Positions 10,375 to 44,832 of a stretch of DNA of 64,000 bases are shown piece after piece. Within the stretch, counting starts at the first letter, position 1; each line of letters starts with the position of its first letter. This DNA is from Macrobrachium rosenbergii. Lineage: Eukaryota > Arthropoda > Malacostraca > Decapoda > Palaemonidae. The translations under genes and the position numbers were made by a program. The notes under the pieces were generated by a model. The model saw only the letters and a list, made by a program, of their open reading frames with translations. It searched no databases and was not told where the DNA came from. Where the stretch lies: the NCBI RefSeq assembly GCF_040412425.1, contig NC_089781.1:49355227-49419226 (forward strand). The letters are read 5' to 3'.

Positions 10375-12076
10375 ACTAAAACTCTACAAACATTAATTCC
10401 GTTCGGAGATAATGTTGAAACTAAAATGTTTGATGTAGTAAGAGTAAAGGTTCGAGCAGGTACTAAACGTATTAAGTTAAATGCTGTTGTTTGTAACCAT
10501 GTTAACACTTCCATACACACACCTGGTCTACACAACGTGTATCTGCGATTGCAAGAACGAGGTGTTAAACTGGCAGATAAGAATATTGAATCAGATACCT
10601 TAAGTGATATAGGTTTGATTATTGGTGCTGATTATTATAATGCATTTGTGTATTGTCACGATAAATACGATGATGTATGTTTGCTTGGTAGCACCGCTGG
10701 TGCTGTTATTTTTGGTCCTATTCCAAATTGGGCTTGTAATGATGTCAGTGATGATGAAAATGTAAGATCTGTAATAAGTACACAAAGTATTGTTTGCTCG
10801 AGAATCACTGCTTCTGTAAATCCTCTTGATGATGAGGATATTTCTAGATTGTGGTCTTTAGATACGATCGGCATCGGGAAGGATGCGCGATCCTATAACG
10901 ATCAAGCAGCGATCGAACATTTCAGTGAAACTATTGTGAAGACTGATAACAAATATACGATTGATTTGCCATTTAAGAGCGATGCCAGACCCCCTACGGG
11001 TTACAGAAAAGCCTTAGGTCAATTATATTCACTTAAGAGAACTTTTCAGTCTAAACCAGAAATGTTTGATCAGTATCAGTGTGTTTTAGATGAGTATGTT
11101 AAATTAGGATTCATTGAGGAAGTAAAGTTAGAAGATAACTCCTATGATCCAGTTGATGGTTGATGGTATTAATCATTATTTACCTCACCATCCAGTTTTT
11201 AAGGAATCTGCTACGACTCCAATTAGGATAGTTTTCAATGCAAGTAGTAAGGAGTCACAACATGCTAAGTCCCTCAATGATTGTTTACATGCGGGACCTA
11301 ATCTGGCGACGAAGTTGACAGATATGCTGCTGGAATTTCGTCAAAACAAATATGCTGTAGTAGCAGACATAAGTAAAGCTTTCCTTAGAATAGGAATTAA
11401 TGAAAATCACAGAGATTTCACGAGATTCTTATGGTTTGCTGATAGCAATTTTAAGCATGTCAAAACTTTCAGATTTAAGGTTTTATTGTTTGGAGCAACT
11501 TGTTCACCTTTTTTGCTGAATCAGACTATACAGTATCATTTGCAGAATCATTCAGATCCCATCGCCAATTCAGTAAAGAAGTCCTTTTATGTGGATAATT
11601 TCATGAAAACTTATGAGAAATGTGAAGATTTCGAACTCGAGAGTAATAAGGTAAACCAAATTATGTTTGAAGCTAATATGCCTTTGGGAGAATGGGCTAG
11701 CAATTTGAGCTCATTTAATGATAAGCATGCCCCAGATACTGTCAACTTGAATGCAGTAAAACTACTCGGTCTTTTGTGGGATACCTATAATGACTCATTG
11801 AGTGTAAAGACCCCTTCTCAGATTGTTACCTATTTGAATAATCTAGGAAATGTTTGTACTTTGACCAAGAGAAAGGTTGTTTCTCTCCTTTCAACCATCT
11901 TTGATCCTTTAGGAATGTTAACTCCCGTAACAATCAAAGGAAAACTATTTGTGAAAAAATTATGGGAACTGAAAACTGATTGGGATGACGAACTGATGAT
12001 GGATTTAAAGGGAGAGTTTGATGAATTGTTAAACCAACTCAAATCTATTGAGGGGATCAAAGTCCCTAGATCTTGT
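10375..12076 (+). pseudogene. pol: Element N: BEL/Pao pol, left part (protease end and RT)
   Basis: Readable protein runs from near 10375. It contains the end of a BEL-type peptidase domain (LQERGVKLADKN, LIIGADYYNAFVY), then an RT with FVDEYVKLGFIEEV-like palm entry (DEYVKLGFIEEV), RIVFNASSK, VVADISKAFLRIGI, FGATCSPFLL and the active site SFYVDNFMKTY (about 11580-11610). One frame break lies near 11150. TKRKVVSLLSTIFDPLG is a typical BEL/Pao signature. The gene is cut at 12076 by the LTR of element Q and resumes at 23962. Confidence 0.88.
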
Positions 12077-12572
12077 TGTCGGGAATTTCGAACTGATCAT
12101 TCGAAGTCCCCGCCATTTAACTTCACAAGTGTTGCGTTAAATTGGGGCAAAACTGAGGGATCTCACGGGCAGTTCATTGTGCAGAAAGTTGTCCAATACG
12201 CGACAGAGTTAAGAAGTAATTCTTAAATGCCTGGAGGGGAAGGAGCGCGTCTTATAGTAATGAAGACACTATGAATTTTCATTAATGAATATGATTTGCT
12301 ATTCCCTAGTACGAGCTAAATTGTCTATGTAGAGATTTGGAGCCAAGGACTCCGGTAGCCATTCAAGAATTTGCAGATTACGGCCTTCAGCCAGAACTTC
12401 GAGTCAATTCATTGATCCCAGATGATAACTTAACTGTCATTCTTCCTATTCACAAGTAAAGTAGATTCATTGATCTCCGTAATGCCTAAATAAGCGATGA
12501 TTCCCGCCTGAATTACAAGGATTCTGTAGTTTACGCGGAAAAGCGTAAGTTTCCTTTGAAGTAGGGCGAAGG

Positions 12573-15247
12573 CAGGGTTGCCAGATTGGCTTTTTTTAAG
12601 CCAAATCTCAGAAATTTGGCTTCTTTTCAAGGTGGTTGGCTTTGTAATATCAGTTTGGCTCTTTTGGCTTTTTCTTGGCTTTTTTTCAAGTTGATTGGCT
12701 TTGCTATATCTATCTGGCTTTTTTGGCTTTTTCTTGGCTTTTATTTCACTTAGATTTAGTTTACAATATCATTTAGTTTACAAAATCATTTTCATAAATA
12801 CATAATAAAACATGAATTGGAAGAAAATATAAGGTACAAAACAAATCCTCAACATTACTGTATTTAAAGGTACTGGTCTCAGTCTCCGCCCAGCTTATTG
12901 CTATAAATATTACACAGGATACGTGTGTGACTTTTATACGTGTTCAAACCGAAGCCTGACCGTCTGGGGCGTGTAATCTCGCCGCACCACCAGAAATTCC
13001 AGGATTCAAAGGTATATCAGTTAGTCATTTGCCGTTGTCCACACACATTAGTTTCATGGTCGTTTAGTGCTATTAAGTGATATATATACATACTTCGTTT
13101 GTGTAAATTTGTGACACCTATTTGGAACTGTCACCTAAGTGGAAGCCATCTTATGACAGTAGTTGTAAATATAACAGTAAATGGGAAGACACTTTTGTTT
13201 GGGTAAAAAAATCAGATGATGGATCAGACTCAGCCTACTGTAAGATTTGTCATTGCAATATTGCTCCAAGAATGAGCAACCTCGCAAATCATGAGAAATC
13301 AGAGAAGCATCGTAAGAAAATCCCATTTAAAGGCCAAACTCGCCTCAGTGTGGAACGTACCCCAATTCAAAGCAATGACAAAATCAAAACTGCAGAACTT
13401 CCCATTGCTGTGAGTATGACTTGCCATTGTGCAATACGTACAATTGACCATTTAAGTGAGATAATGAGAGTACATGGAAAAGGTAGTACATTGGAACACG
13501 TAAGGTTACAGAGGACTAAATGTTCTTGTATAATAAAGAATGTAGTTTCGCCGGCATTAAAAGCTGAGCTTATTGAAGATCTTCAAAACAAAAAGTATGC
13601 AATCATCATTGATGAATCTACTGACATTTCCACTCAGAAACACTTGTGCATTTTAGTTCGTTATTTGAGTGATCAGAGGCAGGAAATTTCTACTGATTTC
13701 TGGGGTTACTTCCAGTGCATGAGGCAACTGGAGAGAATATTTTTAATTTGATTGATGAAGAAATTAACAAATGTGGCCAAACTCTTTCAAACTGCATCGG
13801 ATTTGCATCAGACGGTGCTGCAAACATGATTGGCTGTAATAATTCTGTATGGTCTAGGCTAAAACAAGTTTCTCCATTTTGTGTACAGCTCAGATGTATC
13901 TGTCATTCTTTGGCATTATGCATTCAAAATGCAGTTTCAAAGCTGCCATCAAATATAGGTTTTCTGCTATCTGAAATCCCTCAGCGGTTCAATCACAGTG
14001 AAATTAGAAGAGAGAGATATAAGGAGTTATTCAAAGTAGGCTAATGCATAGGCTACAGTTACAGAATTTGAACAAACACGAACTGCTCCTCTCCCCTTTG
14101 AGAAACTTTCTTCTACTCGTTGGCTTGTGCGTGGAAAGGTAATGTTCAATATACTAATGAATTGGGAGGAGCTTAAGGCTTATTTCACTGTCACGGAACT
14201 AGACAAATTAAAGCTGGATGTAAAATACAAAGCTAAAATGATTAGAGACATGCTGTCTGATCATAAGAATTACTTGTTTTTTGAATTTGCAACACCATTA
14301 GTCCAAGAATTTGAAAGACTGAACAGCTGTTTTCAGCGAACCAAAGCCGATCCCCATGAACTACACCAGGAATTATTCTTGCATCACAAAAGCTTTCACA
14401 ACAGACTGCATGATATTAATGGACAAAAAAAGCATATTGATAAAGTTGATTTTGGCATAAAATTCTTAAGAGAATGTAGCAAGTTCCAGCAAAGGAAAAA
14501 TACAAATGAAACTTTAAAAGAAATAAGGGATGCCAAAGAAAGATGTCTGGCTATGTTACAAGAAGCTCTTAGTCAAGTAAAGAGTAGGCTTCCCTCGACA
14601 AGTGATATTTTTAGAGATCTGGCAAAACCAAACCCCATAGTAGTTTTGAATCAAGCTTCAAGACCAGCATTTTCGGAATTATCATTCTTAAACATTGCTG
14701 AAAGCAATATCAATGTAATTGAAGATCAATATAGAAAATTGCCCTTTATTGATTGGAAAGAAGAGGCTGCATTTAAAAAGCATGGAATCCCTGCAGACTC
14801 TGAACAATTTTGGATTGGTGTACTTCAGCATCAAGCTTTTAAAGAACTAGCCACTTTTGCCCTTACATGTTTAGTAACTCCAGTGAGTAACGCTATAGTC
14901 GAGAGAATATTCTCGCTTGTAACATCTGTAAAAACAAAAGCCAGAAACCGAATGCAGCTAAAACTTCTCGATGCTATTGTTAGAATAAGAGCAGAGCTAC
15001 TGCTCACAAACAAATGTTGCAAAGACTTCGTGGTATCTTCAAGAATGATAAAGGATTTTATCTCTGAGAAAGTTTATGCTAAGGATTCCACTTCTGATGT
15101 AAACGACACTTCCGCATAGGATTTGGAGCTTTTTTTGTAATGTAAGTATTTGGCTAGAATCATAATTATGTAAAAAAAATTGGTTTTTTTTGGCTTTTTT
15201 TCTATTGCTGTTTGGCTTCCTAGCTAGGTTCACATCTGGCAACCCTG
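12573..15247 (+). mobile_element. hAT transposon O in the Q LTR
   Basis: Terminal inverted repeats CAGGGTTGCCAGAT begin and end the element. Flanking 8-mers are GGCGAAGG (left) and GGCGAAGC (right); the unoccupied LTR at 22817-23956 has GGCGAAGC once. An 8-base duplication and CAGGG ends are hAT traits. Near both ends the motif TTGGCTTTTT recurs many times (about 12586-12745 and 15181-15225), probably transposase-binding repeats. It codes for one broken transposase. Confidence 0.95.
13122..15119 (+). pseudogene. O transposase (BED finger, hAT)
   Basis: Three consecutive segments in shifted frames make one hAT-type protein. The first (13122-13751) has a BED-like finger, YCKICHCNIA with NHEKSEKHRKK, then IIIDESTDIS with the first catalytic Asp. 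The second (13715-14044) has IGFASDGAANMIG and CICHSLALC. The third (14127-15119) ends in the dimerisation region TPVSNAIVERIFSL and KARNRM. The frame breaks near 13720 and 14045-14125 inactivate it. The order matches animal BED-hAT transposases that cut and paste the element. Confidence 0.88.
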
Positions 15248-15905
15248 GGCGAAGCGATGCCTCATTCCTGCCCTAGGCCTGAACGTCGTAAGTACCATGA
15301 TGTGTTAGTGTGTCTCTCGATTCTCTGGCAGCCATCGCCATACCAGGTCGAATTCCGTAGTAACTGTGAGTTATCTTTATCCGTGTATAGATGTGTCATC
15401 CTTGCGATGAGGGACTTGATTTGCGCAGCAAACGAAAACTGCAAGTGTAAGAATGTCATTTAATTGTAGTTTAGAGTAAATAGTTCTCGATTTGTTGTGT
15501 TTTTTCGTCCAGTCGTGGACTTAGTGTCTTTCAAGCACGTGATATCAAAGACCCTAAGGGCTACAAGTAACAAAGCCCAGAGAGCTTTCAGGTTCCTTGA
15601 ATTGGATTGGTGAGAGAAAAGAAACTGCGTGTGCAGTGGAAATTTGCTATTAACGTTAATCAGTGTTGGTTCTTAATGCACATTGGCTTAGCCGCCCGTG
15701 ATGCTCATTCATTCATGTTCAGTATTATTAATGGGTTTAAATGTTTGTTTTTTTGTAATAAAACTGTAATTTGTTGACCACATATTATTGAATCCCACCC
15801 AGATAGTTTTAGAGAGTGCGCCTCCTCAAGGCCTTGTCATCGGCCCATAACATCAGGGCACCAATCAGAACAAAAATAATAAAAGTCGAAGAAAATCCCG
15901 ACATT

Positions 15906-15923
15906 TGGTCCTTCAAACCGGAT
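15906..15923 (+). other. Q primer-binding site, probably tRNA-Tyr
   Basis: TGGTCCTTCAAACCGGAT starts two bases after the LTR. It complements the 3' end of tRNA-Tyr (acceptor strand TCGAAGGACCA) with two mismatches, both changes expected from decay of CG pairs. Confidence 0.6.
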
Positions 15924-15969: not shown

Positions 15970-16512
15970 ATGGTCTATAGGGCAGCCCTGATAGGACACA
16001 GTCAGCTCCCACCGAATCTGCCACAGTGTTCAGATAACCAGATTGAGATCTATAGAAGGCCAGGAGGTCTGGTCAGTCAATTTTTAGATAGTAGTCTATC
16101 ATTCTGGCAGAGATGGTATGAGTTGGTCGTGTTATGTATAGGAGGAAACGACCTGGCAATCGATCACCCCAAAACCGTTTGGGATAATTTACGTACTCTT
16201 ATCGAACGCTTGAGGAAAATTTGTGAAATCATTGCTATCTGCGACGCAGAGATCAGAGAGTATCTCCCTGATAATCATTTTGCTATCAATTCCGTTGAAT
16301 ATATCAAGAAAGTAAAGAACTTTAATGTGAGAATCTCCAAATACTGCAACAAAAGAAGTCGGTACGGAGTCCGACACTTGCCTATGAACTCTCGTGCCTA
16401 CCGCGAAGGCAAACAAAGGGACGGAGTCCATTTTGATTCAGAAATCCGTAACGCGTTCCTCAATCGTTTGATGAGATTGATCAGGAGAGAGAGAGACAGA
16501 CAAAACAACTAG
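15970..16512 (+). CDS. SGNH-hydrolase-like ORF of element Q
   Basis: An uninterrupted 180-residue ORF starts at the first ATG after the primer site and ends in TAG, 133 bases before gag. It shows the SGNH block pattern in order: LIGHSQL (Ser block, residues 7-13, normally GDS), RRPGG (Gly block, about 29-33), CIGGNDLA (GxND block, about 57-64) and DGVHFD (DxxH block, about 153-158). So Ser, Gly, Asn and the Asp/His pair are all present; length suits a small esterase. Basic residues cluster at the C-terminus. Members of this fold are lipases or esterases, and SGNH-like domains occur in ORF1 of some CR1-type LINEs and in some DIRS-group elements; I know of none between primer site and gag in BEL/Pao. 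Activity is unproven, since the block I Asp is His here. Confidence 0.7.
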   Translation: MVYRAALIGHSQLPPNLPQCSDNQIEIYRRPGGLVSQFLDSSLSFWQRWYELVVLCIGGNDLAIDHPKTVWDNLRTLIERLRKICEIIAICDAEIREYLPDNHFAINSVEYIKKVKNFNVRISKYCNKRSRYGVRHLPMNSRAYREGKQRDGVHFDSEIRNAFLNRLMRLIRRERDRQNN

Positions 16513-16645
16513 GCTCAGCTTGTTCCGATGTGCAATTGGCCACACATGCCACTAGTCTTTGTACCCCGCCTTTCTAACGTAAGAAAAATCCTAGTTTCCT
16601 AGTTTACATAACCCCCCCCCTAAGAAGTAGAGTACATAATCCAAA

Positions 16646-17260
16646 ATGGCAGTGGCTATGATTGTCCACATCGAGGCATCGCCGAGTCTCACAGCGGACT
16701 TACTGGCCGAATCACAGCGTGCGTTAGTAGAAACGTATTCTGAGAGCGTGTACCAAAATTTGGTCACGCAGTTGAGACAAGAAGGCCAGCTTCGAGAGCT
16801 GTACAAACGTCAAGTCGTAAAGTTAGAATCTAGCTTAGATGCCAGAATCAGGCAAGCCTTAGCAGAAGCTGTGTGAGCTTCTACCCTTTTGTTGAATCAA
16901 ATCGATAAACAAAGTCACTCAGACAGGGAATGTTTCCCTCCCCAAATTGAAACCGCTGCCTCTCCCCACCTTTGAAGGGGAAGTGCGGGAATATGCTTCT
17001 TACAGAGAATTGTTCACGATCCACGTGGATTGAAGGGCAGATTTGGACGACGTGTCCAAATTTACTTACTTGTTAGGGACTCTGGGCAGGGATCCGCTTA
17101 GGATCGTTAAATCCCTAAGTGTAACCGCCGCAATTACCAGGTAGCGTTAGATCTCTTGGATAAGCAATATGGTAATGTACACCAAACGCTCGTGACCTTG
17201 CATCAAAAACTTGCCAACATATTCGTACCCTCGTTGAACCCCGTGAGAGCTGAAGAAGTT
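16646..17260 (+). pseudogene. gag: Q gag, N-terminal part
   Basis: The ATG at 16646 starts a 76-residue segment with a helical, Gln/Glu/Leu-rich stretch (ALVETYSESVYQNL, QLRQEGQLRELYKRQ) typical of a Gag coiled coil, then a TGA at 16874. Readable pieces continue in other frames to about 17260, including a fragment near 17150 with LLDKQYGN. BEL/Pao Gag usually has such a region before the DUF1759-like capsid segment. Stops and frame breaks make this inactive. Confidence 0.65.
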
Positions 17261-17276
17261 CAGATTTGAGTTAACA

Positions 17277-18320
17277 GTGATCATTGAGCAAATAAAGAGG
17301 CTCAGTACTAATGATATAGGCCATGGCATGGTCATGAGCCTTATCAATCAGAAGTTGTCAGAAGGTAAGCTCTATCGAAAGGTGGTCGAACACCTCAGAA
17401 AATGTGACTATAGTTTAGAAGAATTTTTTGAAGCTATAGACTTCATAATTCGCATGTTGGAAGATGACACGTTACAGCGAGGCAAGCAATTAGGATCTGA
17501 TAAGAAAAACGATGTCAGCGTTAGACCCAAAACGAAACCCATGCAGAATAATTCTTGTCCCTTTTGCAATGAACGGCACCCGCCTCACGGATGCCGCCGA
17601 GTAAGTGACGTGGCTGCCAGACGCCACATTCTACTGAGGAAGGGCCTGTGTTTTAATTGCCTTCAGTCAGGTCACCGTAGTGATAGATGCCCTAACCCCA
17701 ATTCATGTAAAGGATGTGGAAATAATCATAATACTTCCATTTGTGATGATAGCAGCTTCAGAAAAGCACATTCCGTTCCCTCCACTTCGTCCCGAAATAA
17801 TCCCAGTTTAGTAAGTACAGTAGAATCAAAACCATGTAAGAGCGCCAAAGTAGCCCAAACGTCTAGTGTAGATCTTCCCTGTACGATTTTGCCAACGGCC
17901 ATGGCCGAGATCCATCACAAGCAGGGGAGTAAACGGGTTCGCTTGTTTTTGGACACTGGGAGTCAACGAAGCTTTATCTCCGCTAAAACTGCAAAGTAGT
18001 TAGGCCTGCCAGTGGTAGGCAAAGTGGCGTTGAACATTGCTCCCTTTGGTTCAGCAGAAATCAGTGGCCAGTATGACGTTGTGAGTTGCCGGGTAGAGAT
18101 GGGTAACAGAATTGTTCGAATGAAACTAGTTGTTCATGAGAACGTAGACGTCCCGATTCATAACGCAGGTTATGTAAGAGTAAGACAACACCTAGTTGGG
18201 AAGGGAGTCACGTTAGCAGATCCTGACAGTAAGAGCGATAAATTACGAAACGTGCACATTCTTGTGGGTGCAGACTACTTTAATTATTTCATTATTGGAG
18301 TAGAAAGATCGACGGGATAA
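17277..18320 (+). pseudogene. Q gag C-terminus and aspartic protease
   Basis: The first segment (to 17999) ends the capsid region (IGHGMVMSLINQKL, YSLEEFFEAIDFIIRML) and has three Cys/His fingers: CPFCNERHPPHGC, CFNCLQSGHRSDRC and CKGCGNNHNTSIC. The retropepsin follows with LFLDTGSQRSFIS (about 17944-17982). An in-frame TAG at 17997 interrupts it, and the same frame resumes at 18000 with LGLPVVGKV and HILVGADYFNYF, ending in TAA at 18318. It would process Gag-Pol if intact. Confidence 0.85.
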
Positions 18321-19820
18321 GTCTTTTTCTGACCCATAATGGCATGTCGCCATACGGGAGAGTGCGACAGTGGCTATTAAAAGGTCACAAGATAGATCAT
18401 TTGAGAACGCTCAGGGTATGTAGGGTCACGACGAGCGAACCAATTGCATTTGATGTTGATGAATGGTGGCGTTTGGATACCGTGAGGCATCGCCCCATCC
18501 GAGCAGTACACTGTCCGTGAAGCGGAAGCCATGCGTAAGGTTTCGCAGAGTGTAACGAAGAAACCTGAGGGATATCAAGTAAGTTTGCCGTTCCGTTCAG
18601 AAGGTAGGCCAGAAACAAACTTTAGAAATGCTGTAGCACAGCTGGATTCGCTGCAAACCAAATTTCAGAAAGACAAGGAATACTATAATCAATATCAGGG
18701 AGTGATCGACAAATACCTGGAGGAAGGATTTATATATGAAGTAAAAGATCCAAAAATAGAAGGATACTACATGCCGCATTTCGGCATTAAAAAAGATAGC
18801 CGCACGACCCCCCTAAGAATCGTATTCAATGCCTCATCCAAAGCTACGAATAATAAATCCTTAAATGAATGCCTGTTACCTGGGCCTAATTTAGTAGAGT
18901 TGGCCTATAATATGCTTCTAAAGTTTCGAATGAATAAATACGCCATGCTTGCAGACATAAGCAAAGCATTTCATAGAGTACTATTAGATCCCCGTGATGC
19001 CAGATATACAAGATTCCTGTGGTGAGAGGTAGCAGGTCGAGCGCTGACCTTCGCTTTCAGAGTCGTGGTGTTCGGCATCACGGCTAGTCCCTTTTTGTTA
19101 CAACAAGTATTGAGTCATCATTTTAGTTTAGAAGGAAGACCTGAATTAAGCAAGTCATTTTACGTTGATAACTATGTTAGTACTTTTGAAAGTCTGGATG
19201 AGATGAAAAAAGAACAAGAATCTGTCCATGCAATTTTGGATAGGGCCAGAATGCCGTTAGAAGGGTGGGCAACGAACAGTATAGCCTTCGATAGCGAGAG
19301 AGAGTGGAAAGAACCTGTGAATGTGAGCGTGCTCGGGCTGAGATGGGCTCGAGACTTGGACTGTGTGTGTGTGAAAGAGAGTGAGAGGATTCGTGAATTG
19401 GGGGAGAAATGGGTACCTACGAAACGTAGGGTACTAGCTTTGCTAGTGTCAATTTACGATCCGTTAGGTTTAGTCAGTCCTTTATTTGTTAGGGGAAAGC
19501 TGGTTCTCCAACAACTTTGGGAACAAGAGATTGGATGGGATGATGTGCTGTGTAAGGAAAAGGCTAAAGTGCGAGAACTGTTAGCAGAGTTGAAATCAGT
19601 CAGTGATTTAACATGTCCTAGAGCGGCAGGAGTCAGAAGATCCGAACTCCATATATTCACCGATGCCAGTAGTAGGGCATACGGTGCTGTAGCGTATGTC
19701 AGAGATAAAGAAGGTAACGTAATATTACTCACCAGCAAAATGAGAATCACTCCGAAAGGGATGCTCAAAATCACCATCCCTAAATTAGAACTTTTAGCTT
19801 TGCTGCTAGGTTGAAGGCTA
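18321..19820 (+). pseudogene. pol: Q reverse transcriptase and RNase H start
   Basis: Between 18321 and 18530 the frame is broken. From 18531 RT motifs appear: PLRIVFNASSKAT, YAMLADISKAFHRVLL, then TGA at 19023 (after TRFLW), then FGITASPFLL and SFYVDNYVSTF (about 19155-19190). TKRRVLALLVSIYDPLG and SELHIFTDASSRAYGA give the thumb and RNase H start. The YVDN form of the active site is shared with element N. It ends in a stop at 19812. Confidence 0.88.
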
Positions 19821-22020
19821 GCGAAAACGATTAAAGGACTAATAGAGCCACAAGAGATTAGTATCTGGTCAGATAGCAAAGTGGCATTAGCCTGGGTGGC
19901 ATCCCCGGATGCCAAGGACAACAAAAATATCTTTATATCTAACCGTGTGGCGGAAGTTGTTTTTCTCCGCCAGATTTGTGATTTCAGTGTGAAGTATGTG
20001 CCCAGCAAACAGAATCCTGCTGATGTCTTGTCTAGGGGCGCAACAATCCAGCAATTGCAGCAGAACCCTCTTTGGCGCCAGGGTCCAGAGTTCTTGAGAA
20101 TCGCAGGAGAGCCTGTTCCTTTCAAAGAGGCAGATCTAACGAATATCAGAACCGTGGTAGTGGCGGTGCAGGAACTGAGGGAAGAAACAAGCTCTATTCC
20201 CCCAGGAGGGATATGGGACCTACTACTCAAGGAGGTTGAGTTCCGAATTTTGATTAGAGTAACCAGATTAGTGTTAAAGTTTGCAAAAGTGAAAAGGGAT
20301 CCTTTTCGAGCTCTTGTCCTATTAGAGCAAAGATTCTATTTACCTACTGTGTATGCATATTTGGAGGGTAAGATCAGACCCCCTCGTGAGATACTGAATT
20401 TTGTGAGTCAATTAAATTTAATTATAGTAGATAAAATGATTTGCACTAGGGGACGAGTGTCCCAAATTGATGAGATGAAACATTTAATTCTTTTGCCTGC
20501 CAAGGGACACTTAGTCAGAGCATACTTAAAGTATTTGCATTGTTTGCGCCTCCATTGTAATGTCAATACGCTAATGGCGATTTTTCGACAGAAATGCTGG
20601 ACGCCGGGCCTGAGGTCTATTGCTAAGAAAGTTGTACGGAAGTGTCCAGAGTGCGTGCTAGCCTTCCAACCGCTGATGAGACGACCACCGCCACCCCCCC
20701 TGCCGAAGGAAAGGATCACCTTGCAGAAACCATTTGCCGCAGTCGGCGTGGACCACACCGCGGCCATACAAACAGAAACACGACCAGGCTATATCCTCAG
20801 CGTGACGTGCATGGCCACCAGGGCCGTGTATTTAGATTTCTGCCCCTCCTGGAAGCGGAGGAATTTGTTCTAGCTCTTCGAAGATTCAGTGCTACGCATG
20901 GAGCCCCGACCTTAATCACTTCTGATAACCACCAAACGTTCAAGATGGCCAGCAACCTCCTTCAGGGACTTTATGAAGAGGATGAAGTCCAGCAGTTCCT
21001 GAGGAGGACTGGTGTAGAATGGCGATTTCAAACCCCCCGTGCGCTGTGGAAAGGTGGTTTTTTCGAACGTCTGATTGGTGTTACGAAGCGTGCCCTTCAG
21101 ATTGCCCTCGGGAAAAGTATCTAGTGAAAGAGGCGGAGGCGGTAGTTAATAATAGGCCGTTGATGTATAGCGGTGACAAGTGCGAGGACGAGGTCCTCAC
21201 CCCCTCTCATTTAATACGAGGTCACTTAATTAACTTAATGGCACCTGTTTTACCAGATGAAGACCTTAATGCTACCTTCACCTCCCGGAGGCTACGGGAT
21301 CGATATCTAAAGCTAACAGACACTTTAAAAGCCTTCCGGGAGAGGTGGAGGAAGGAGTACCTAAGTGCCCTAAGAGCCCGACACGATTGTCAGTCTGGGG
21401 AACCCACCAAGCTACACCCCGGAGACATCGTGTTAATAAAGCAAGAAAATCAAAAGCGGGCAACGTGGCCCCTTGGACGCGTCGTGGAGACGTACCCGGA
21501 CGACGACGGTGTCGTGCGTTCGGCCAAGGTATTGTTCGAAGATGTTGAGTCCCTGCGTGCTGTCAGCCACTTGGTCCCCCTGGAACTTGCCCCCTCAGAT
21601 GACGATGATGGCGTTGGAGATGAACGGCGTGACGATGTTGATGGTGCGATGGAGGAGATGGTGCGTGACGACGACGGCAACGAAGAGGTCCGAGACGAGG
21701 GAGCGTACAGCCCAGCAGTAGGTGTTCCAGGAAATGTTGTGACGTCTGGGGACGACCAAGGGATGGCACTGGCTGCAACATCCGAACAACCAGCCACAAA
21801 GGTCTTGAGTGACGTAGAAGACACTGACGATGTTGGTAACGATTCGAGCGATACCAATGCGGTAAGTGAGAGTGCTGAAGTGAATGATACTGAGGTATCG
21901 AGTGGTGGTGATGTTGACGTTCAGTTAGGCGGACAAAGATGTTCCGCACGCCCTTTGAGAAAGGCTGCTGCTAAGCAGCGCGAGTTAATGAAGCGCTTAA
22001 TGGAAAGCGACTATATCTAA
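19815..22020 (+). pseudogene. Q RNase H end, integrase and acidic tail
   Basis: Contains YVPSKQNPADVLSRG (RNase H end), the zinc region HCLRLHCNVNTLM with CPEC, then the core with VGVDHTA, LITSDNHQTF and WKGGFFERLIG giving D, D and E. Frame breaks occur near 20845 and 21100. The C-terminal module (LHPGDIVLIKQENQ, RATWPLGRVVETYPDDDG) is the DUF5641-like end found in BEL/Pao integrases. A tail of about 120 Asp/Glu/Val-rich residues ends RCSARPLRKAA. Third positions are more GC-rich than in N. Confidence 0.88.
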
Positions 22021-22816: not shown

Positions 22817-23956
22817 TGTCGGGAATTTCGAACTGATCATTCAAAGTCCCCGCCATTTAACTTCACAAGTGTTGCGTTAAATTGGGGCAAAACTGAGGGA
22901 TCTCACGGGCAGTTCATTGTGCAGAAAGTTGTCCAATACGCGACAGAGTTAAGAAGTAATTCTTAAATGCCTGGAGGGGAAGGAACGCGTCTTATAGTAA
23001 TGAAGACACTATGAATTTTCATTAATGAATATGATTTGCTATTTCCTAGTACGAGCTAAATTGTCTACGTAGAGATTTGGAGCCAAGGACTCCATAGCCA
23101 TTCAAGAATTTGCAGATTACGGCCTTCAGCCAGAACTTCGAGTCAATTCATTGATCCCAGATGATAACTTAACTGTCATTCTTCCTATTCACAAGTAAAG
23201 TAGATTCATTGATCTCCGTAATGCCTAAATAAGCGATGATTCCCGCCTGAATTACAAGGATTCTGTAGTTTACGCGGGAAAGCGTAAGTTTCTTTTGAAG
23301 TAGGGCGAAGCAACACCTCATTCCTGCCCTAGTCCTGAACGTCGTAAGTACCATGATGTTTTAGTGTGTCTCTCGATTCTCTGGCAGCCATCGCCATACC
23401 AGGTCGAATTCCGTAGTAACTGTGAGTTATCTTTATCCGTGTATAGATGTGTCATCCTTGCGATGAGGGACTTGATTTGCGCAGCAAACGAAAGCTGCAA
23501 GTGTAAGAATGTCATTTAATTGTAGTTTAGAGTAAATAGTTCTCGATTTGTTGTGTTTTTTCGTCCAGTCGTGGACTTAGTGTCTTTCAAGCACGTGATA
23601 TCAAAGACCCTATGGGCTACCAAGTAACAAAGCCCAGAGAGCTTTCAGGTTCCTTGAATTGGATTGGTGAGAGTAGTAAGAAACTGCGTGTGCAGTGGAA
23701 ATTTGCTATTAACGTTAATCAGTGTTGGTTCTTAATGCACATTGGCTTAGCCGCCCGTGATGCTCTTTCATTCATGTTCAGTATTGTTAATGGGTTTAAA
23801 TGTTTTTGTAATAAAACTGTAATTTGTTGACCAAATATTATTGAATCCCACCCAGATAGTTTTAGAGAGTGCGCCTCCTCAAGGCCTTGTCATCGGCCCA
23901 TAACATCAGGGCACCAATCAGAACAAAAATAATATAAGTCGAAGAAAATCCCGACA
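22817..23956 (+). repeat. Q 3' LTR
   Basis: 1,140 bases, TGTCGGGA to TCCCGACA, nearly identical to the left LTR and without the hAT insert, so it records the empty target site of O. Confidence 0.95.
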
Positions 23957-23961
23957 CATGT

Positions 23962-26082
23962 TTTAATGAAGGAACTTGTAGCTTACATGTGTTTGTTGAT
24001 GCCTCTCAGGTGGCTTATGGAGCCTGTGCGTATGTTGTTAGTAGTAAGCACACAAGCCACTTGCTAATGAGCAAGTCTCGAGTAGCCCCGATCCCTCCAC
24101 TCTCTATTCCCCGTCAAGAATTACTTGCTTTGACGGTGAATGTCCAGAACAACTCCGCATGCATAAAGTACCAAAATTAAAAGTAAAATGTAATATTTTT
24201 CATATTTAAAGCGTTTTAGGCCACTTCTTATGATGAGGAAACACCCACAATTTTGCCATATTAGCTATGGAGGGTGTTGGGGGACAGGTATTGTCTAACC
24301 TTATAAGTCAAAAATCGAAAATCATTCGATGGGGAACTAGTTTTTCTGAGAAACATTACAGTAAAAAACCTCATTTTCGAACTAACTCCAGTAAGATTTC
24401 TAGGATGCCGATTAGATAATCATTAATATCTCGGATATGGTGAATCTCCTCAAAAAGTGTTCAGAGACAAAGTTTTATTATTTTATATAGTGAAAATTAT
24501 AGTGTGACCTATTTTCTTATATCTCACCGCGGAGTTGTTCTGGACATTGACCGCTTTGACAATAGGCATGCGCCTAGCTGTTCATTTGTTAGAGATATTT
24601 GGGGATAAAATTTCAGATTGCACTGTTTGGAGTGACTCCCAAGTAGCTTTGAGTTGGGTATTTTATGAAAGATCTAAAGAAGTGTTTGTAGTCAACAGAG
24701 TAAAAGAAATTAAGGACTTGAAGTCCGCTCATAACATCAGGTTGCTATATGTCACCATTGAGGATAATCCTGCTGATTTAGTTACACGAGGTATTTCAAT
24801 GTCTCTTTTGAGTAAGCCGGGTTTGTGGTTTCATGGCCCTACCTGGATTGTTGACAGAAAACAGTTTCCAGAACAAGAGGATGTAGTTTACAGAGAGTCT
24901 GTTAATGTCAATGAAATTATTGTAGAACCAGTTTTGAGGAAACCTGATGATGATGTACTTGTATTTAATTGTTCTGAATTCTCTTCACTGAAACATGCAT
25001 TAAGAATTGTAGGTAGATTGATACTGTTTGGGAGAATAATATTTCCCGACAAATTCAGGGAAAGCAATAATTTACTTATTTTAATCAGAATCATGCAACG
25101 TCAAGCCTTTCCAACACTATATTATGCGTTGACTAATGGGTTACAAACCAGTTCTAGTGTTCCTTCTGAGTTAAGGAATCTTATCAGACAGTTAGGTCTT
25201 TATGTTGATGAAAGCGGTGTCATTCGGTGCCAAGGAAGACTTCACAATGCAGATTTGCCCGAATTCGCTAAGCACCCAGTATACGTCGCCAATCGACACT
25301 CCTTGTGGCAGCTTATAGTGTCTCATTATCACGTACTCAATCTGCACTGCAACACGAATACGCTTGTGGTTATATTGAGACAACAGTTTTGGGCTGGAAA
25401 AATGAGGCAGTCCGTTAAGAAGATTCTGAAAGAGTGTTTATTGTGTAAGAAAGCACAAAATCAACCCCTAAGTCTACCTGGATTTCCCCCACTGCCACCC
25501 GAATGAGTTAAGCATGAAGTACCTTTTTCTTGTGTTGGCGTCGACTATACGGGAAACATTAACGTGTCCGAAAATGAGGCTGAAAATGAGAAGGCGTATG
25601 TCTTGTTATTTACATGCACTACGTCAAGAGCAGTAGCCTTATATGTGTGCAGATCCATGAATGCACAAGAATTCCTCTTTGTTTTTAGACAATTCGCTGC
25701 AAGACACGGACTTCCGAAGGTTTTGATAAGTGATAATGCACCAAACTTTATTGCAGCTAGTAAGTTTCTAAGAGATGTCAGCGAAGAGCCCGAGGTGCGA
25801 AATTATTTGACGGATCATAATTTAGAATGGAAGTTCATAACTCCCCGGTCACCATGGAAAGGCGGCTTTTATGAGAGACTGATCGGAGTAGTGAAATCAT
25901 GCTTACAAAGGGCCTTGTATAGAAAAAGGATCTCCTTTTTAGAACTCACTACCATCGTTGCCGAAGCTGAGAACATCATTAATAACAGGCCGCTAACATA
26001 TGTCAACGAAGATAACGCCGACATCGCGCTCACCCCTGCCAAACTCTTATACGGCAGAACTATTGCAATGGCTCCTCCTTTT
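23962..26082 (+). pseudogene. Element N: BEL/Pao pol, right part (RNase H and integrase)
   Basis: Coding resumes after Q with CLFVDASQVAYGACAY (RNase H) and PRQELLALT, is interrupted by element R, and resumes at 24561 with IGMRLAVHLLEIFG. RNase H ends with NPADLVTRG near 24770. Integrase shows LHCNTNTL with CLLCKKAQ, a TGA at 25504, then VGVDYTGNI, LISDNAPNF and WKGGFYERLIG (D, D and E), and NNRPLTYVNEDN. The gene stops near 26082 where a CsRn1-type LTR end begins. No N LTR was found. Confidence 0.85.
24135..24552. mobile_element. Element R: 418-bp TIR element (MITE) in N
   Basis: Flanked by a perfect 8-base duplication GCTTTGAC (24127-24134 and 24553-24560). Terminal inverted repeats start GGTGAATGTCCAGAACAACT on the left and match the right end over 24 bases with one mismatch. 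No coding capacity. The 8-base duplication allows hAT, P or Merlin groups; the GG start leans to Merlin but this is weak. Confidence 0.9.
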
Positions 26083-26572
26083 AAGAGGTGCGAAAGAAAC
26101 GAGCAGGATAAGGTTACTGCTACTTTATTCATGTTGTTGTTGTTGTATTGTATTAAGCCAACTCTTGTGTTGGCACGGCAGTTGGCTTGATACAATGTTA
26201 ACAACAACGCTACTATTATTCATGTTGTTGTTGTTGTATTGTATTAAGCCAACTCTTGTGTTGGCACAGGTAACCTTATCCTGCTCGTTTTGATTCTTCT
26301 TAAAAGGAGGAGCCATTGCAATAGTTCTGCATATAAGAAAGAAACGACATATGTTAGGATATTAATGATGTTCTCAGCTTCGGCAACGATGGTAGTGAGT
26401 TCTAAAAGAATCCTTTTTCTATACAAGGCCCTTTGTAAGCATGATTTCATGATCAGTCTCTCCAGGTGACCGGGAGTTTAGAACTTTCTAAATTATGATC
26501 CGTCAAATAATTTAGGCACCTCGGCTCTTCGCTGACATCTCTTAGAAACTTACTAGCTGCAATAAAGTTTGG
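25739..26572. repeat. Fold-back: inverted duplication of N integrase end and LTR end
   Basis: Sequence from about 25739-26117 (integrase and start of a CsRn1-type LTR end) recurs in reverse complement at about 26268-26572, with small deletions in the second arm. The centre (26118-26267) holds two direct copies of a TTG-rich hairpin motif. The inverted arm still reads as integrase on the minus strand (for example ELTTIVAEAENI). It is a rearrangement, not a gene. Confidence 0.85.
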
Positions 26573-26924
26573 CGTCGCGCCGTGGAATACAATGAAAACC
26601 TCAGTGACCTGAGGTCGATAATAAATTACAATAAATACAGCGAACCAGTACACTTTACGATGTAAGAACAGACAGAAATGGAATTGGATACAGTCTTGAT
26701 GCCAGTGAAAGAAGAAACATGCGACGCATTTTTGACAGCAGGTAAACAAAATATATACATAAAGTAAATGACTGAACTTTGCGTGACCTGATGCGTTAGG
26801 CGTGACTAATTGTAAGCAAAGAAAATGGGACGCCACCACAGAAAACTTGCCCAGCAGAGACTTTGCAATTAACACTTTTAGCAGGGACTTCACGAATGAC
26901 TTTACGGATGACTTTACTACAGCC
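26083..26924 (-). repeat. CsRn1-type LTR (K/J subfamily), disrupted
   Basis: 26083-26130 matches the LTR 3' end of J in reverse complement (GAGGTGCGAAAGAAACGAGC). 26577-26924 matches the rest of the LTR as in K. The fold-back lies between. No internal region is attached on the 26083 side, so it may be a solo LTR that landed in N. Confidence 0.65.
26121..26267. repeat. Two direct copies of a TTG-rich hairpin repeat
   Basis: Copies at 26121-26176 and 26211-26267 each read (TTG)n, then GTATTAAGCCAACTC and TTGTGTTGGCAC. GCCAAC and GTTGGC can pair. The segment between them can also pair with the flanking TTG runs. Confidence 0.75.
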
Positions 26925-26929
26925 TTATG

Positions 26930-27302
26930 TTCAGGGCCATCTTTGGTTGGTCCATCAGGGGGGTCATTGCATGGGGCGGCGGTACCAGTTTGGAGGTGTG
27001 CGGGGGAGGGGGTTGTGAGAGGGAGGTGTCTGCCTCTGAGAGGTTAGCGGTAATTTGTACATGGTTGGGAACGTCTCCATCCATGTTCTTTTTGCGCTCT
27101 CACTTGGAGTGTGTGGGAGCACTCAAGACAATACACGCTAATGACACTGGCGATCTGCTGACGAGGGTCGGTTAACGCCCGAACGCTTTATTAGAGCGCT
27201 GTAGTTAGTCCGTTAGGGGTGTGGATTAGGTTCATTGGGCCAAGACTTAGTCGCCATTTGGGTCCCTCAATGACTTCTGGGAACCACTCCGGGGGCCAAC
27301 AC
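26930..27302 (-). pseudogene. Element M: CsRn1-type leader and gag start
   Basis: On the minus strand a gag start ATG lies at 27072-27083, in a context matching C's Gag start (MDGDIHNHVQITANLSEADT in C). The reading continues to about 26930 and is then cut by the adjacent LTR. The leader 27084-27302 resembles that of C and begins with a decayed tRNA-Trp-type primer site near 27290-27301. Confidence 0.7.
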
Positions 27303-27686
27303 TGTGAGAGAGGTGCGAAATAATGAGCAGAAGACAAGTACTGCTGGTTTGTTGATGAAAACTAGCTGCTTGTAAAGTGGGATGCAGACGTCTGTGTAGT
27401 TCGCAAAGACCGCTGGTACAAAGATTTACAGGTAACCTGGGGTCAAACTAATTCCTTACAAACACAGGACAGGTTCATACAGAGAACATAGTGATCAACA
27501 ATGTCTGACATATAACATAAATAACTCTATACTTGTACATAAAACATGATTGTTTAGAAAGACAACATATATACACTTTACAATTATGATGATAAATATA
27601 CATTCCAATCGACCTTAGGTCAATGGAAAGGCACCACAGAAAACAGGATGTTCTCTGCAGAGAACATGTTGAGCGGGGACTTTACA
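27303..27686 (-). repeat. Element M 5' LTR
   Basis: 384 bases; on the minus strand TGTAAAGTCC to CTCTCACA. It closely resembles both LTRs of element C (28772-29153 and 36648-37033). Confidence 0.88.
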
Positions 27687-27747
27687 AGTTCCTCACTGCT
27701 GCTACAATGTTTATTGTTGACGAACCAATAGTTATTCTTTTGAAGTG

Positions 27748-28032
27748 TTAATATTTTCGTAGTGTGCTGTCAGATCCAAATAGCATACACTCAGTTTTGT
27801 CTTCATTAATTTTAAATTTCTTCACCAACATCCATTTTTTTATATCTTTCTTTATTGCATTAATTTTACTAACGGTGTCTTCCACCTTTTCGACAGGAAA
27901 ATAGAACTGGGTATCATCAGCATACATTTTATACTTAACCTTGTGCTTATTTAGAATTCTAGATAATTCAACTGTGTAAATACTAATCAGCAGTGGACCC
28001 AGAATGCTGCCTTGGGGCACCCCTTTTGTTAG
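27748..28032 (-). pseudogene. LINE reverse transcriptase fragment T1
   Basis: On the minus strand: TKGVPQGSILGPLL, YKMYADDTQFYF (active site ADD) and FKINEDKTECMLFG. These are non-LTR RT motifs of the CR1/Jockey type. It is cut at 28032 by the LTR start of element B and ends at a stop near 27748. It could belong to the LINE at 56214-59100, see findings. Confidence 0.88.
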
Positions 28033-28372
28033 TGTAAGGGCGACAAATCACGCCCCTCCTTTCTTGTGTTTCTCCCCTCAGATGTACATTAATCACATCA
28101 TGTATATTATCTGTCTTTATTTCAGATTCTTTATGTACCTCATCTTATGCACCATTGTATGGCCTTTCCGCTGACATGTATATCTACCTTTTATATGCCA
28201 TGTAATGAATATTGTACATATTTTAATGCTTGTCAGAAAACACAAATTCTGTATGGACGCAGCGGGGGGCCTCGGGTCACCTGCTATGTTTCCGTCCACT
28301 TTTTGCTTTATAAAACCTGTTGAGAATAATAAAGGATCAGTCTCTCTTTTGACATTTCTCTTGAACCTCACA
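28033..28372 (+). repeat. B 5' LTR
   Basis: TGTAAGGGCGACAAATCACG to CCTCACA, 340 bases. It is aligned with the 3' copy starting at 39325 and is followed after one C by a decayed primer site (TGGAAACCG where related elements have TGGTGACCC). Confidence 0.85.
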
Positions 28373-28517
28373 CTGGAAACCGTGCCATTAACGGACTAAA
28401 TACAGCGTACCTAAAAGGGCACGTTTTGGCACTTCGTTCGACCTCTCGAACAAATCAGCACCATTAACGGACTCAATACGGCACATTTTCCTGCGTTTTG
28501 GTGCGTGAGAAGTAAAG
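28373..28517 (+). other. B leader
   Basis: Short untranslated leader with three copies of a CCATTAACGGACT-like phrase. Related phrases are in the leaders of C, E and J, so it is a feature of this clade. Confidence 0.6.
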
Positions 28518-28771
28518 ATGTCAGAAGCAGAACCTCAATGCGAACCCGCGAGCATCATCTGTATGCCTCTCTCACCACCAAAGCCAGACACAGTCAAACT
28601 TCCCCCGTTCTCGTGGCAAAACACAGCATCATGGTTCCGGCGCTCAGAAGCACACTTTTGCATGGCGTGCATCTCAGATGATGCTACCAAATCAGACATA
28701 GTCATGACAGCGCTCCCGGAAAAAGTATTCAACAGAATCTTCCCCTGGCTGGACACGCAACCGGACAAAGT
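28518..28771 (+). pseudogene. gag: B gag, N-terminal part
   Basis: The ATG at 28518 begins MSEAEPQCEPAS, followed by PPFSWQNTASWFRRSEAHF and TALPEKVFNRIFPWL, the capsid-like N-terminal motif of CsRn1-type Gag. Coding is cut by element C's LTR at 28772 and resumes at 37034 with TFTDLKNKLLSSY. Confidence 0.88.
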
Positions 28772-29153
28772 TGTAAAGTCCCTGCTCAACGTGTTCTCTG
28801 TAGAGAACATCCCGTTTTCTACAGTGCCTTTCCATTGACTTAAGGTAGATTGGAATGTATATTTAATCATCATAATTGTAAAGTGTATATATGTTGTCTT
28901 TCTAAACAATCATGTTTCATGTACAAGTAACGAGTTATGTATATGTCAGACATTGATGATCCCTATGTTCTCTGTATGAACCTGTCCTGTTTTTTGTAAG
29001 GAATTAGTTTGACCCCAGGTCACCTGTAAATCTTTGTACCAGTGGTCTCTGCGAACTATGCAGACATCCGCATCCTGCTTTATAAGCAGCTAGTTTTCAT
29101 CAATAAACCAGCAGTACTTGTCTTCCTGCTCATTTTTTCTCACTTCTCTCACA
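28772..29153 (+). repeat. C 5' LTR
   Basis: 382 bases, TGTAAAGTCC to TCTCACA. A TTATAAG TATA-like box near 29079 and AATAAA near 29102 lie close together near the 3' end, as in the J LTR. Confidence 0.9.
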
Positions 29154-29397
29154 GTGGTGACCCCCAGAGTGGTTCCCAGAAGCCATTAACGGACCCAAAC
29201 GGCAAATAAGTCTTGACCCAATGAACCTAATCCACACCCCTAACGGACTAACTACAGCGCTCTAACAAAGCATTCGGGCGTTAACTGACCCTCGTCAGCA
29301 GATCGCCAGCGTCATTAGTGGACCCACACAGCACGCTCCCCCAGCGTGTATTGGCATGAGTGTTCCCAAACACTCCAAGTGAGAGCGCAAAAAGAGC
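29154..29397 (+). other. C primer-binding site and leader
   Basis: TGGTGACCCCC at 29155-29165 is the tRNA-Trp-type primer site, one base after the LTR. The leader to 29397 repeats phrases such as ATTAACGGACC and CTAACGGACTA and has no ORF of note. Confidence 0.7.
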
Positions 29398-30250
29398 ATG
29401 GACGGAGACATTCACAACCACGTGCAAATTACAGCAAACCTCTCAGAGGCAGACACCTCCCTCTCGCAACCCCCTCCCCTGCACACCTCCACACCGGTAC
29501 TGCCGCCCCACGTGATGACCCCCTTGATGGACCAACCAAAGACGGCCCTTAACATAAGTCTGCCGCCATTCACCAAGGAGAATGCAGCGTCTTGGTTCTA
29601 CAGGGTCGAGTGGCAATTCAGAATAGCAGGCCTGACTGACGAGGTGTTGAAGGCAGACATTGCCATTAACGCCCTCCCAGAGGAGATATATAAGAAGATC
29701 GCCCCTTGGTTGATGATGACGTCGGTCCCCTCCACCTTCCAAGAACTGAAATTCACTCTCGTCGAGACTTGCTCCCTGCCAGTCTCTGAGAGAGCTGCCC
29801 TCGTCCTCGACCTCGCCCTCAACCCCCAGCAGGAGGGAAACTTCTTGGAAGTGTGGCATGACCTCCAGGACCTCCTCCTCCTCCCCGAGACTGACAGCAG
29901 CAGCAGGCGCAAGGAAATCAGTCCGTCGAGGGAGATCTTCCTGTGGGCAGATCACGGATGCGTGAACCCTGCCAGTAAAGGACTTAATCAGGTTGGCGCA
30001 GCAGCTGACAGACTCCACAAAGTCGGCCAAACAGGCGACCACGCCCGCACACTCCGCCAACTGCCTCCTGCCGGAGGACCCCACCATGGAGCCTGTCAAC
30101 TCCATTGAGCAGAAAAGGTCATCCCACCAGCAGAAGAATGAGGGGCCAGGGCTGTGCTACTTCCACCGGAGGTTCAGGAGAGCCACCCAGAGGTGCGAAA
30201 CCCCCTGCCCTTTCTTCCCTTCAAAAAACGGAGGAGGCGGTGGCCAACCC
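29398..30250 (+). pseudogene. gag: C gag with CHCC finger
   Basis: The ATG at 29398 starts MDGDIHNHVQITANLSEAD. PPFTKENAASWFYRVEWQF and NALPEEIYKKIAPWL mark the capsid-like N-terminus, and ERAALVLDLALNPQQ the second half. Frame breaks occur at about 29915 and 30100. The finger LCYFHRRFRRATQRC followed by PC is the C-x2-H-x9-C-x3-C type characteristic of CsRn1-clade Gag rather than the usual CCHC knuckle. Confidence 0.85.
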
Positions 30251-42262: not shown

Positions 42263-43168
42263 TTAATTTTGAGCATCTTTATCTGCCTTAGCTTGGAATC
42301 CATGTTGAAGCTCTTGTACTGTAGCAATTAAGCAAAGTTTATGAATGGGTCTCTCCCAGTGAACCACCTTTCCATTCTCCACTGTTCGAACAGTAACTCT
42401 TCGAACAAGCCCATCTTTTCCGGGATGAATCCTCTCAACAAGACCGCGCCTCCACAGTCCCCTAGGAGCGACACCTCCCTTTAGGCCTGGTTCCAGAAGA
42501 AGAACCAAATCACCAACTTGAAGATTCTGTTTGGGATGAAACCATTTCGATCTTTGTACTAGCTGAGGAGGCATATAACGAATCCAAGTCTCCCAAAATA
42601 TCTGAATTCTCTGTTGAGCTACCTCTACCATGCTTCTCAAGTTCACTTCGTTACCGGTATATGGTTGTAGAACTGAAGGTTGCCCATGAGGAAACAGTAA
42701 GTCATTGCCGGTTATAGTTGGGGACTCAAGAGGATCTGGTCCATTTGGGAAAAGTGGTCGTGAATCAACAAGGTACGTCACCTCTGACAGTATTGTTTGC
42801 CATTCCAAAGCACTGAATTTCTTGTGGTGATATTCTGTTACTGCATCTAAACCTCTTCTACAGCTTCTGATCAATGATTCAACAACACCATTCATATGAG
42901 AAGCGTGAGATGTGTTGAATTTCCACTCAAATTTTGTCCCAGCAATTGCAAACGTGTCCTTTATTAGGCTCTCGTTCCAAGAATTTATCCACTTTTGCAA
43001 TTTCTCTTGAGCCCCTATGAAATTGCGTCCTCTGTCACTTACTGCCAAAACTGGATGGATTCCATGATTACAAGTAAATCTTCTCCAAGCACAGAGAAAA
43101 GCATCTGAAGACAATGAGTCGACCAGTTCAAGAGATATGACACGAGTGACGGTGCAAATTATGATCAT
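42263..43168 (-). pseudogene. F pol, integrase core and C-terminus
   Basis: 301 residues open on the minus strand. SDRGRNFIGAQEKLQ gives the second catalytic Asp and SHASHMNGVVESLIRS the Glu; the first Asp lies in the preceding decayed part (ISLELVDSL region). NDLLFPHGQPSVLQP and QVGDLVLLLEPGLKGG with GLVERIHPGKDG form the DUF5641-like C-terminal module usual in BEL/Pao. A frame break near 43190-43230 separates it from the upstream ORF. Confidence 0.85.
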
Positions 43169-43227
43169 TATACTTCCTTCAGTGCTTGCATTACGAGTTA
43201 ACTTTATTTTGATAGGGTCAAAGAAAT

Positions 43228-44832
43228 CTAATGCAACTCTGCTAAAGGGGGTGGGGTATTGGGCTCACCTCTGAAACTTGGCAGTTCCCCCATCTGTTGG
43301 CCCAACAATAGGCGACGTCTGGTTCTGCAGAAACAACACTTGAAAGCAATGTCCTTAAATAATCTTGCTCCTCCAATAATGTAAACTCCATGCTTAAAAG
43401 CTAAAGCAATTGCGACTCTATATCCTTGATGACCTGTATATCGATGAATCATCTGACCGAATGCTTCAGCCAGGGAAGAATTCCTCACCAATAAAACTGG
43501 ATGCCTCTGCTCATAAGGTAAATGGAGCTTATGTAGTCTGCTTCCAATTCTTAAAATGCCTTTTTCATCCAACTTTGGGTCAAGCTTCTTAATCTGTTTA
43601 TGATTAACTTCATCTTGATTTTTTAAAGACTTCTGGCTTGCATAAAATAAAGCCAGTTCTGCTTCTTGTATTTCTTTAGGTTCTAGATGACTTTGATAAT
43701 TTTCTGGGTTTTGTTGTAATAGCAAACGGCGGCAGTAAGCAGTTATTCGCACAAGTCTATTCCAGTCTGAAGAGAGTTCTGTAAATCTTTCCTCAAAACT
43801 CTCATCAGCCAAAATTCCAACAAATTGGATCCTTTTAAGAGATTCTGGTGTGTACTCTTTAACAATACAACGCTTCTTTTCAAAATCATATGTTGGTTCC
43901 CCAAAATCACAATCTTGAGAACTGTTCAGAAGAAAATCAGGACCATTGATCCATCCTTGTAGTTCACTTGGCTTTATTGGCTTGGTTAATGCATCGCCAG
44001 GATTCAATTGTGAAGGAACATAGCAAAATTCTTTTGAAAATCCTGGCAAAGCATCCTGAATCTCCTGAACTCTAGCTGACACAAATGGTTTAAAGGTTCT
44101 AGCAGGAGAGCGAACCCAGGCCAACACTACTTCTGAATCGGTCCAAAATTTCATGGTACTAACCCTGCCAACCACTTGCAAAACAAGCAAGGCAAGTCTA
44201 GCTAGCATAACCACAGCAGCAGTAAGCTCAAGACGTGGAATAAAACGCTGTTTCAACGGAGCCACTAAAGACTTTGCGATGACGAATTTCAGTTTTACTC
44301 CATGAGAAGTATTCCATTTCAGCCAGATCACAGAACCTAGGGCAGATTCACTGGCATCACTAAATCCATGAAGTTGAGGGTCTCCTAGAGAATCCTCTGG
44401 CTTTATCATCCGAGCTAGTCTAAATCCAATTAATTGATTCATTTCATGAACATATCCCTTCCACATTTTGATTTGTTCTTCACTCAATTCATCATCCCAA
44501 CCAACTCCACCAGCCCATAAATCCTGAAGACAAATCTTGTATCTAATTGTTACAGGAGATAACATACCTGTAGGATCCCACAACTTTGATACCAAACTAG
44601 CAACCTTCCGCTTTGTTAGTTTTGAAAACTCCTCACTGAATTTGTCTAGCTGAATAGCCACACTATCCATAGCCTTATCCCATACATGACCCAAAACTCG
44701 TGTTTGCTTGTCTTCTGGGCATCGGTCAACAGAGGGGTCATTAGAATGCCATTCTTTTATTCTGAAGGAGCCTTTTCCTAATATCCGATCCACCTGATCC
44801 ATGGCTGCAATAGCTAATTCACCAAAGTGCAT
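43228..44832 (-). pseudogene. pol: F pol, RT thumb, RNase H and integrase zinc region
   Basis: A 534-residue ORF on the minus strand. It begins at VDRILGKGSFRIKEWHSND, the part after the RT active site in BEL/Pao. LTKRKVASLVSKLWDPTG is the typical signature. RNase H is seen in LHGFSDASESALGSVIW, PRLELTAAVVMLARL, FWTDSEVVLAWV and VPSQLNPGDALTK. The integrase zinc region is RYTGHQGYRVAIALAF with CCFCRTRR. Its start at 44832 is arbitrary because the frame is broken there. Confidence 0.85.

Follow-up and report, generated by a model that had tools for sequence, protein, structure and literature searches.

An open reading frame (ORF) encoding a putative SGNH hydrolase lies ahead of gag in element Q, a long terminal repeat (LTR) retrotransposon of the BEL/Pao type in the genome of the prawn Macrobrachium rosenbergii. 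The DNA analysed, called the window here, is a stretch of 64,000 nucleotides (assembly GCF_040412425.1, contig NC_089781.1, positions 49,355,227 to 49,419,226). The ORF (15970–16512, + strand) runs for 180 codons before its stop and begins 46 bases after the end of the primer site (15923), the 5' LTR ending at 15903; the gag ATG follows at 16646, 133 bases downstream of the end of the ORF. This placement is exactly as described in the initial annotation. The motifs that it assigned to SGNH blocks, GHS (I), PGG (II), GGND (III) and DGVH (V), are also read in the ORF, and the many stops that it reported elsewhere in Q are present, with stops and frame changes found through the remainder of the element. 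The features of the element are as follows:

12077–12571, + strand: first part of the Q 5' LTR (TGTCGGG...), matching 22817–23310 at 98.4%
12572–15246, + strand: hAT transposon inside the 5' LTR, not belonging to Q, with the 8-base direct repeat GGGCGAAG at both flanks
15247–15903, + strand: second part of the Q 5' LTR (...CCCGACA), matching 23303–23956
15906–15923, + strand: primer binding site of 18 bases, starting TGGTCCTTC, with TGG at 15906
15970–16512, + strand: putative SGNH hydrolase ORF of 180 amino acids (aa), with Ser11, Gly32, Asn60, Asp151 and His154
16513–16645, + strand: spacer of 133 bases with TTCTAAC and a C-rich tract resembling a 3' splice site, which may serve in splicing
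16646–17999, + strand: gag with a zinc knuckle (zf-CCHC) and the start of the protease (aspartyl protease), containing stops and frame changes
18000–22020, + strand: pol, comprising reverse transcriptase (RT), RNase H region (Peptidase_A17), integrase zinc domain and DUF5641, with several stops and frame changes
22817–23956, + strand: Q 3' LTR, with 19 substitutions and four indels relative to the 5' LTR over 1145 aligned bases

Using Pfam profiles, the ORF was matched by PF00657 (Lipase_GDSL) at 24.9 bits, over the curated cut-off of 23.6, and by PF13472 (Lipase_GDSL_2) at 28.5 bits (E 2.6e-6), under its cut-off of 32.9; NCBIfam gave no match for the ORF. A homologue search with the ORF alone found two proteins, and one with a three-sequence alignment found 250 at E ≤0.01. 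This search admitted only proteins of 0.55–1.75 times the query length, so that longer fusions would be missed, and the residue and size counts given here rest on the 120 homologues listed among the 250. These 120 are compact proteins of 128–194 aa, 93 of them of 170–194 aa. Homologue identity to the ORF is about 27–36%, with the active-site blocks kept. Across the 121 aligned proteins, query included, Ser11 is kept in 111, Gly32 in 115 and Asn60 in 119, and, within block V, Asp151 is kept in 103 and His154 in 104, gaps being counted as misses. Of the 103 homologues whose alignment covers all five catalytic positions, 83 have the full set of residues. At 12 of 12 motif positions, and at 44 of 164 others, the window protein has the residue most frequent among the homologues. 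It is a single basic domain with a calculated pI of 9.64.

Searching solved structures with the single ORF sequence returned no SGNH chain; the best match, to an ATP synthase chain at E 0.0076, is in our view fortuitous. With the homologue profile, the only solved chain reached at E ≤0.01 was the esterase of ORF1 of the long interspersed nuclear element (LINE) ZfL2-1 (PDB 4c1b), at E 0.001. A structure model built from the single sequence failed, and one built from 51 sequences was good, with a mean predicted local distance difference test (pLDDT) score of 87.8. The predicted model has the three-layer SGNH fold, with the first strand of the domain (residues 3–9) at the start of the ORF and the last helix (157–179) at its end. 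Its leading structural matches were mostly SGNH acylhydrolases, PAF-acetylhydrolase and acetylesterases, while those in a viral structure library were mainly phage esterases and tail proteins, a general SGNH likeness. The profile and structure searches proposed in the initial annotation thus both came out for an SGNH protein, through PF00657 and the profile's reach to the ZfL2-1 esterase in one case and the leading model matches in the other. The assignment of the ORF as an SGNH hydrolase is therefore supported by sequence and by the predicted model.

When the 121 SGNH proteins were compared with the window by tblastn, only the Q ORF was matched. No SGNH relatives were found in the viral contigs or genome contigs searched, and no relatives of the Q RT were found in the viral contigs. 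The genome-contig RT search gave one BEL/Pao-like pol match (L001, 1089–1844), on a short contig of a Bathyarchaeota metagenome-assembled genome, which is probably eukaryotic contamination. No source contigs of equal size were found between 120 of the 250 SGNH homologues and 62 of the 64 RT-fragment matches, a weak comparison because the RT search was limited to proteins of about 137–436 aa.

The ORF is not confined to the window copy. Its DNA had at least 26 matches in the 3.18-Gb prawn genome, the window copy included, and in 22 of the 26 the LTR end, primer site, SGNH ORF, spacer and gag were all present in one order, although the LTR end of one of these (L023) was matched over 43 bases only. 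The remaining four comprise one without gag in the stretch taken, one without a primer-site match, one with only the ORF end and gag, and one fragment. Five of the 22 complete-order copies form two groups of identical ORFs (L018/L019 and L022/L023/L024), and a flanking ATTAG is common to L009 and L018; these likenesses may reflect segmental duplication or a repeated target. In a survey of both LTRs in 20 copies, 15 could be bounded, of which 12 had perfect 5-bp target duplications, with 11 different sequences among them. LTR identity was 98.0–99.6% in 12 of the bounded copies and 91.5–94.8% in three. Given these same-order copies with different target duplications, the gene has been carried through many separate insertions. 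An insertion private to the window copy is ruled out by the same-place ORF in other loci together with the differing target duplications, and the question raised in the initial annotation of whether other Q copies hold the ORF is answered in favour of a part of the element that keeps its place.

SGNH-type ORFs are known from LINEs and Penelope-like elements (PMC3905857). The closest parallel is the ORF1 esterase of CR1/L2/RTEX LINEs (ZfL2-1, PDB 4c1b), described as having the same SGNH fold and catalytic residues and a position upstream of pol (PMC3905857). In these LINEs the esterase is one domain of a coiled-coil ORF1p, whereas the Q ORF encodes a stand-alone protein of 180 aa, and the LTR element around it has retained a separate gag. 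Judging from the model rather than from a coiled-coil program, the SGNH domain takes up the whole length of the Q ORF and leaves no room for a coiled coil. The alignment to the ZfL2-1 profile ends before the position of the transposon-specific Ser228. Another captured SGNH-type ORF is the GDSL ORF3 of the bdelloid Vesta LTR elements, with related ORFs in Athena; the invariant residues are reported as intact in bdelloid LTR elements and lost in Athena-L (PMC5408684). There, the GDSL gene is ORF3 after pol in a rotifer-specific, retrovirus-like lineage, whereas in Q, a BEL/Pao element, the ORF stands before gag (22 of 26 matches). Ngaro tyrosine-recombinase retrotransposons likewise carry an extra SGNH ORF of unproven role, but it follows the tyrosine recombinase (PMC9210276).

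We found no published SGNH ORF in BEL/Pao in searches of a literature library; none of these was aimed squarely at hydrolase ORFs before gag, and one may have missed the slash spelling BEL/Pao. The words 'hydrolase' and 'esterase' are absent from the main text of the BEL/Pao survey (PMC3118150), and the portions of the literature on SGNH retroelement ORFs that were available place none before the gag of an LTR element. Taken together, these point to a new place for a known kind of ORF: SGNH ORFs in retroelements were already known, and what appears to be new here is one in BEL/Pao, ahead of gag.

We propose, with roughly even confidence, that Q carries an extra stand-alone SGNH hydrolase gene between the primer site and gag whose product works like the ZfL2-1 esterase at membranes. 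The proposal starts from the observed ORF, its predicted fold, the kept active-site residues, the fixed place in the element and the repeated mobilisation of ORF-bearing elements. On the full-length RNA, translation would begin at the AUG of the SGNH ORF, the first that is well placed, and the ORF would be the first main reading frame. Upstream of it lies a short frame that opens with an AUG at the primer site. The AUG of the SGNH ORF is preceded by A at –3 and followed by G at +4 in 22 of the 22 other loci L003–L024. As a protein consisting only of the basic SGNH domain, the product would stay in the cytosol. Gag would be made from spliced RNA or by re-initiation, the splicing route being suggested by a GTAAGT within the LTR and by the C-rich tract with TTCTAAC before gag. 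The ZfL2-1 esterase is a slow enzyme that binds acidic phospholipids (PMC3905857). By analogy, the Q enzyme would bind acidic membrane lipids and slowly cleave esters, and such binding or cleavage may help in placing or releasing Gag particles at membranes. The presence of the gene in other, independent insertions of Q suggests that the element adopted an enzyme for membrane handling. The initial annotation had put forward membrane or lipid contact, particle release and nuclear entry as possible roles. More tentatively, there may be a BEL/Pao lineage beyond this prawn in which a leader esterase before gag serves for membrane handling instead of an envelope, and the 250 compact homologues may belong to such elements.

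Several observations weigh against this proposal. The transposon-specific His191 of the LINE esterase corresponds, by residue numbers derived from the alignment, to Cys56 of the Q ORF, and Cys is found in 112 of the 121 aligned proteins, which fits a separate capture. Foldseek matched the model to 4c1b at E 4.0e-5, but the superposition was poor (TM-score 0.42–0.47, root mean square deviation 19–20), and 4c1b was not among the 50 VIA entries listed; both may be due to the ZfL2-1 crystal showing two dynamic half-domains (PMC3905857). Of the 103 homologues with all five catalytic positions aligned, 20 are missing at least one of the residues. In the window copy the A at –3 is absent, and a few bases around its AUG are different. 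Of the 24 near-full copies, only five have an uninterrupted frame, which starts at the ATG and stops at codon 180 or 181; 18 reach an early stop, and one (L016) has 170 codons without a stop, its proper end lost. Frame-breaking deletions are common to more than one locus (L009, L013 and L022–L024; L010 and L011; L020 and L025), through recurrence at short repeats or because broken copies may have moved. Variants present in at least two prawn copies comprise seven synonymous, 14 non-synonymous and no stop changes (binomial p 0.62), against a neutral expectation of about 2.7 non-synonymous per synonymous. Finally, decay after insertion alone would leave the window ORF intact with a chance of about 0.44, with assumed shares of 0.045 per change for nonsense and 2/3 for frameshifts, so its intactness says little and we reject it as proof of selection.

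A third reading, an unlikely one in our view, makes the gene a captured passenger that a successful element takes along but does not need for its spread. The near-neutral ratio of the shared variants, the early stops with the lost end of L016 and the shared frame-breaking deletions all favour it, and the extra ORFs of bdelloid elements are likewise reported without significant departure from neutrality (PMC5408684). The shared-variant test rests on just 21 changes, with little power; it used 21 of the 24 near-full copies, three with identical ORFs being dropped, and left out variant codons that carried two or more changes, as well as any codon covered by fewer than 10 copies. Singleton variants comprised 26 synonymous, 58 non-synonymous and four stop changes, and setting the shared variants against them gave no sign of selection. 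The ratio of non-synonymous to synonymous substitution rates (dN/dS) was 0.44–0.92 in nine chosen pairs of 276 possible (significance not computed, codons with gaps or stops dropped), which speaks against a passenger but is at most a hint of constraint. The constraint that the initial annotation had proposed to seek through dN/dS is therefore not clear among the prawn-genome copies of this young family, and selection is supported only at the longer distance to the homologues, where the kept active site points to it. The active-site blocks retained across about 27–36% identity, together with the start codon and its context retained in all of the 22 other loci, also argue against a passenger.

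A more serious rival, though a doubtful one, accepts a true SGNH enzyme but has it act on host defence or signalling rather than on particle membranes, by deacylating or deacetylating a protein, sugar or lipid messenger. SGNH substrates are broad, the model matches PAF-acetylhydrolase and sialate and xylan acetylesterases about equally, and depalmitoylation and deacetylation are among the options raised for the LINE esterase (PMC3905857). None of our results indicates a substrate, and the sole solved chain reached by the profile is a lipid-binding retroelement esterase, both of which count against this rival. That the frame arose by chance and resembles the motifs by accident is extremely improbable. 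When the 6.9-kb internal region was simulated 1000 times with an order-1 model and read in three frames, a stop-free run of at least 181 codons did arise once, but the Pfam match, the profile of homologues, the fold of the model and the conservation of key residues already refute a chance origin.

SGNH esterases being reported already in LINEs, Penelope-like, Ngaro and bdelloid LTR elements, one more such case, in BEL/Pao and ahead of gag, would mean that retroelements have adopted one enzyme type repeatedly. This would point to a lipid or ester step that the life cycles of retroelements share. Given that the enzyme is separate from Gag in Q, the two roles joined in the LINE ORF1p could be studied apart.

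In the pol of Q, matches above the Pfam cut-offs were PF05380 (Peptidase_A17, 119.8 bits), PF17921 (Integrase_H2C2, 33 bits) and PF18701 (DUF5641, 68.7 bits), while zf-CCHC (17.4 bits), the aspartyl protease (14.8 bits) and RVT_1 fell below their own cut-offs. Integrase, DUF5641 and 5-bp duplications are BEL/Pao traits, and Q has them. Its LTRs, gag and Peptidase_A17 region also agree with the BEL/Pao survey (PMC3118150). The LTR termini are of the TG...CA type (TGTCGGG...CCCGACA), and the edges of the window copy, CTTGT and CATGT, are equal at four of the five bases of the target duplication. The 5' LTR is longer than apparent, being divided by the hAT transposon, which we read as an insertion given that the 3' LTR is unbroken at that point and that the 8-base repeat is present. 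Its Dimer_Tnp_hAT domain scored 28.5 bits (cut-off 21.4), and its coding region is spread over several ORFs. The primer site is complementary to the 3' end of a tRNA that we take to be tRNA-Tyr. The sequence TGGTCCTTCGAACCGGAT is present in 15 of the 23 loci L002–L024, the window copy not being among them.

Q is itself nested in a second BEL/Pao element (10426–12076 and 23980–26190), whose RT/RNase H region breaks off at 12076 and resumes at 23980, its RT and integrase pieces continuing beyond Q. A third BEL/Pao element, with Peptidase_A17 and DUF5641, lies on the minus strand at 42263–47574, and large inverted repeats, with arms of 40–220 bases and 89–100% complementarity, occupy 25741–29562.
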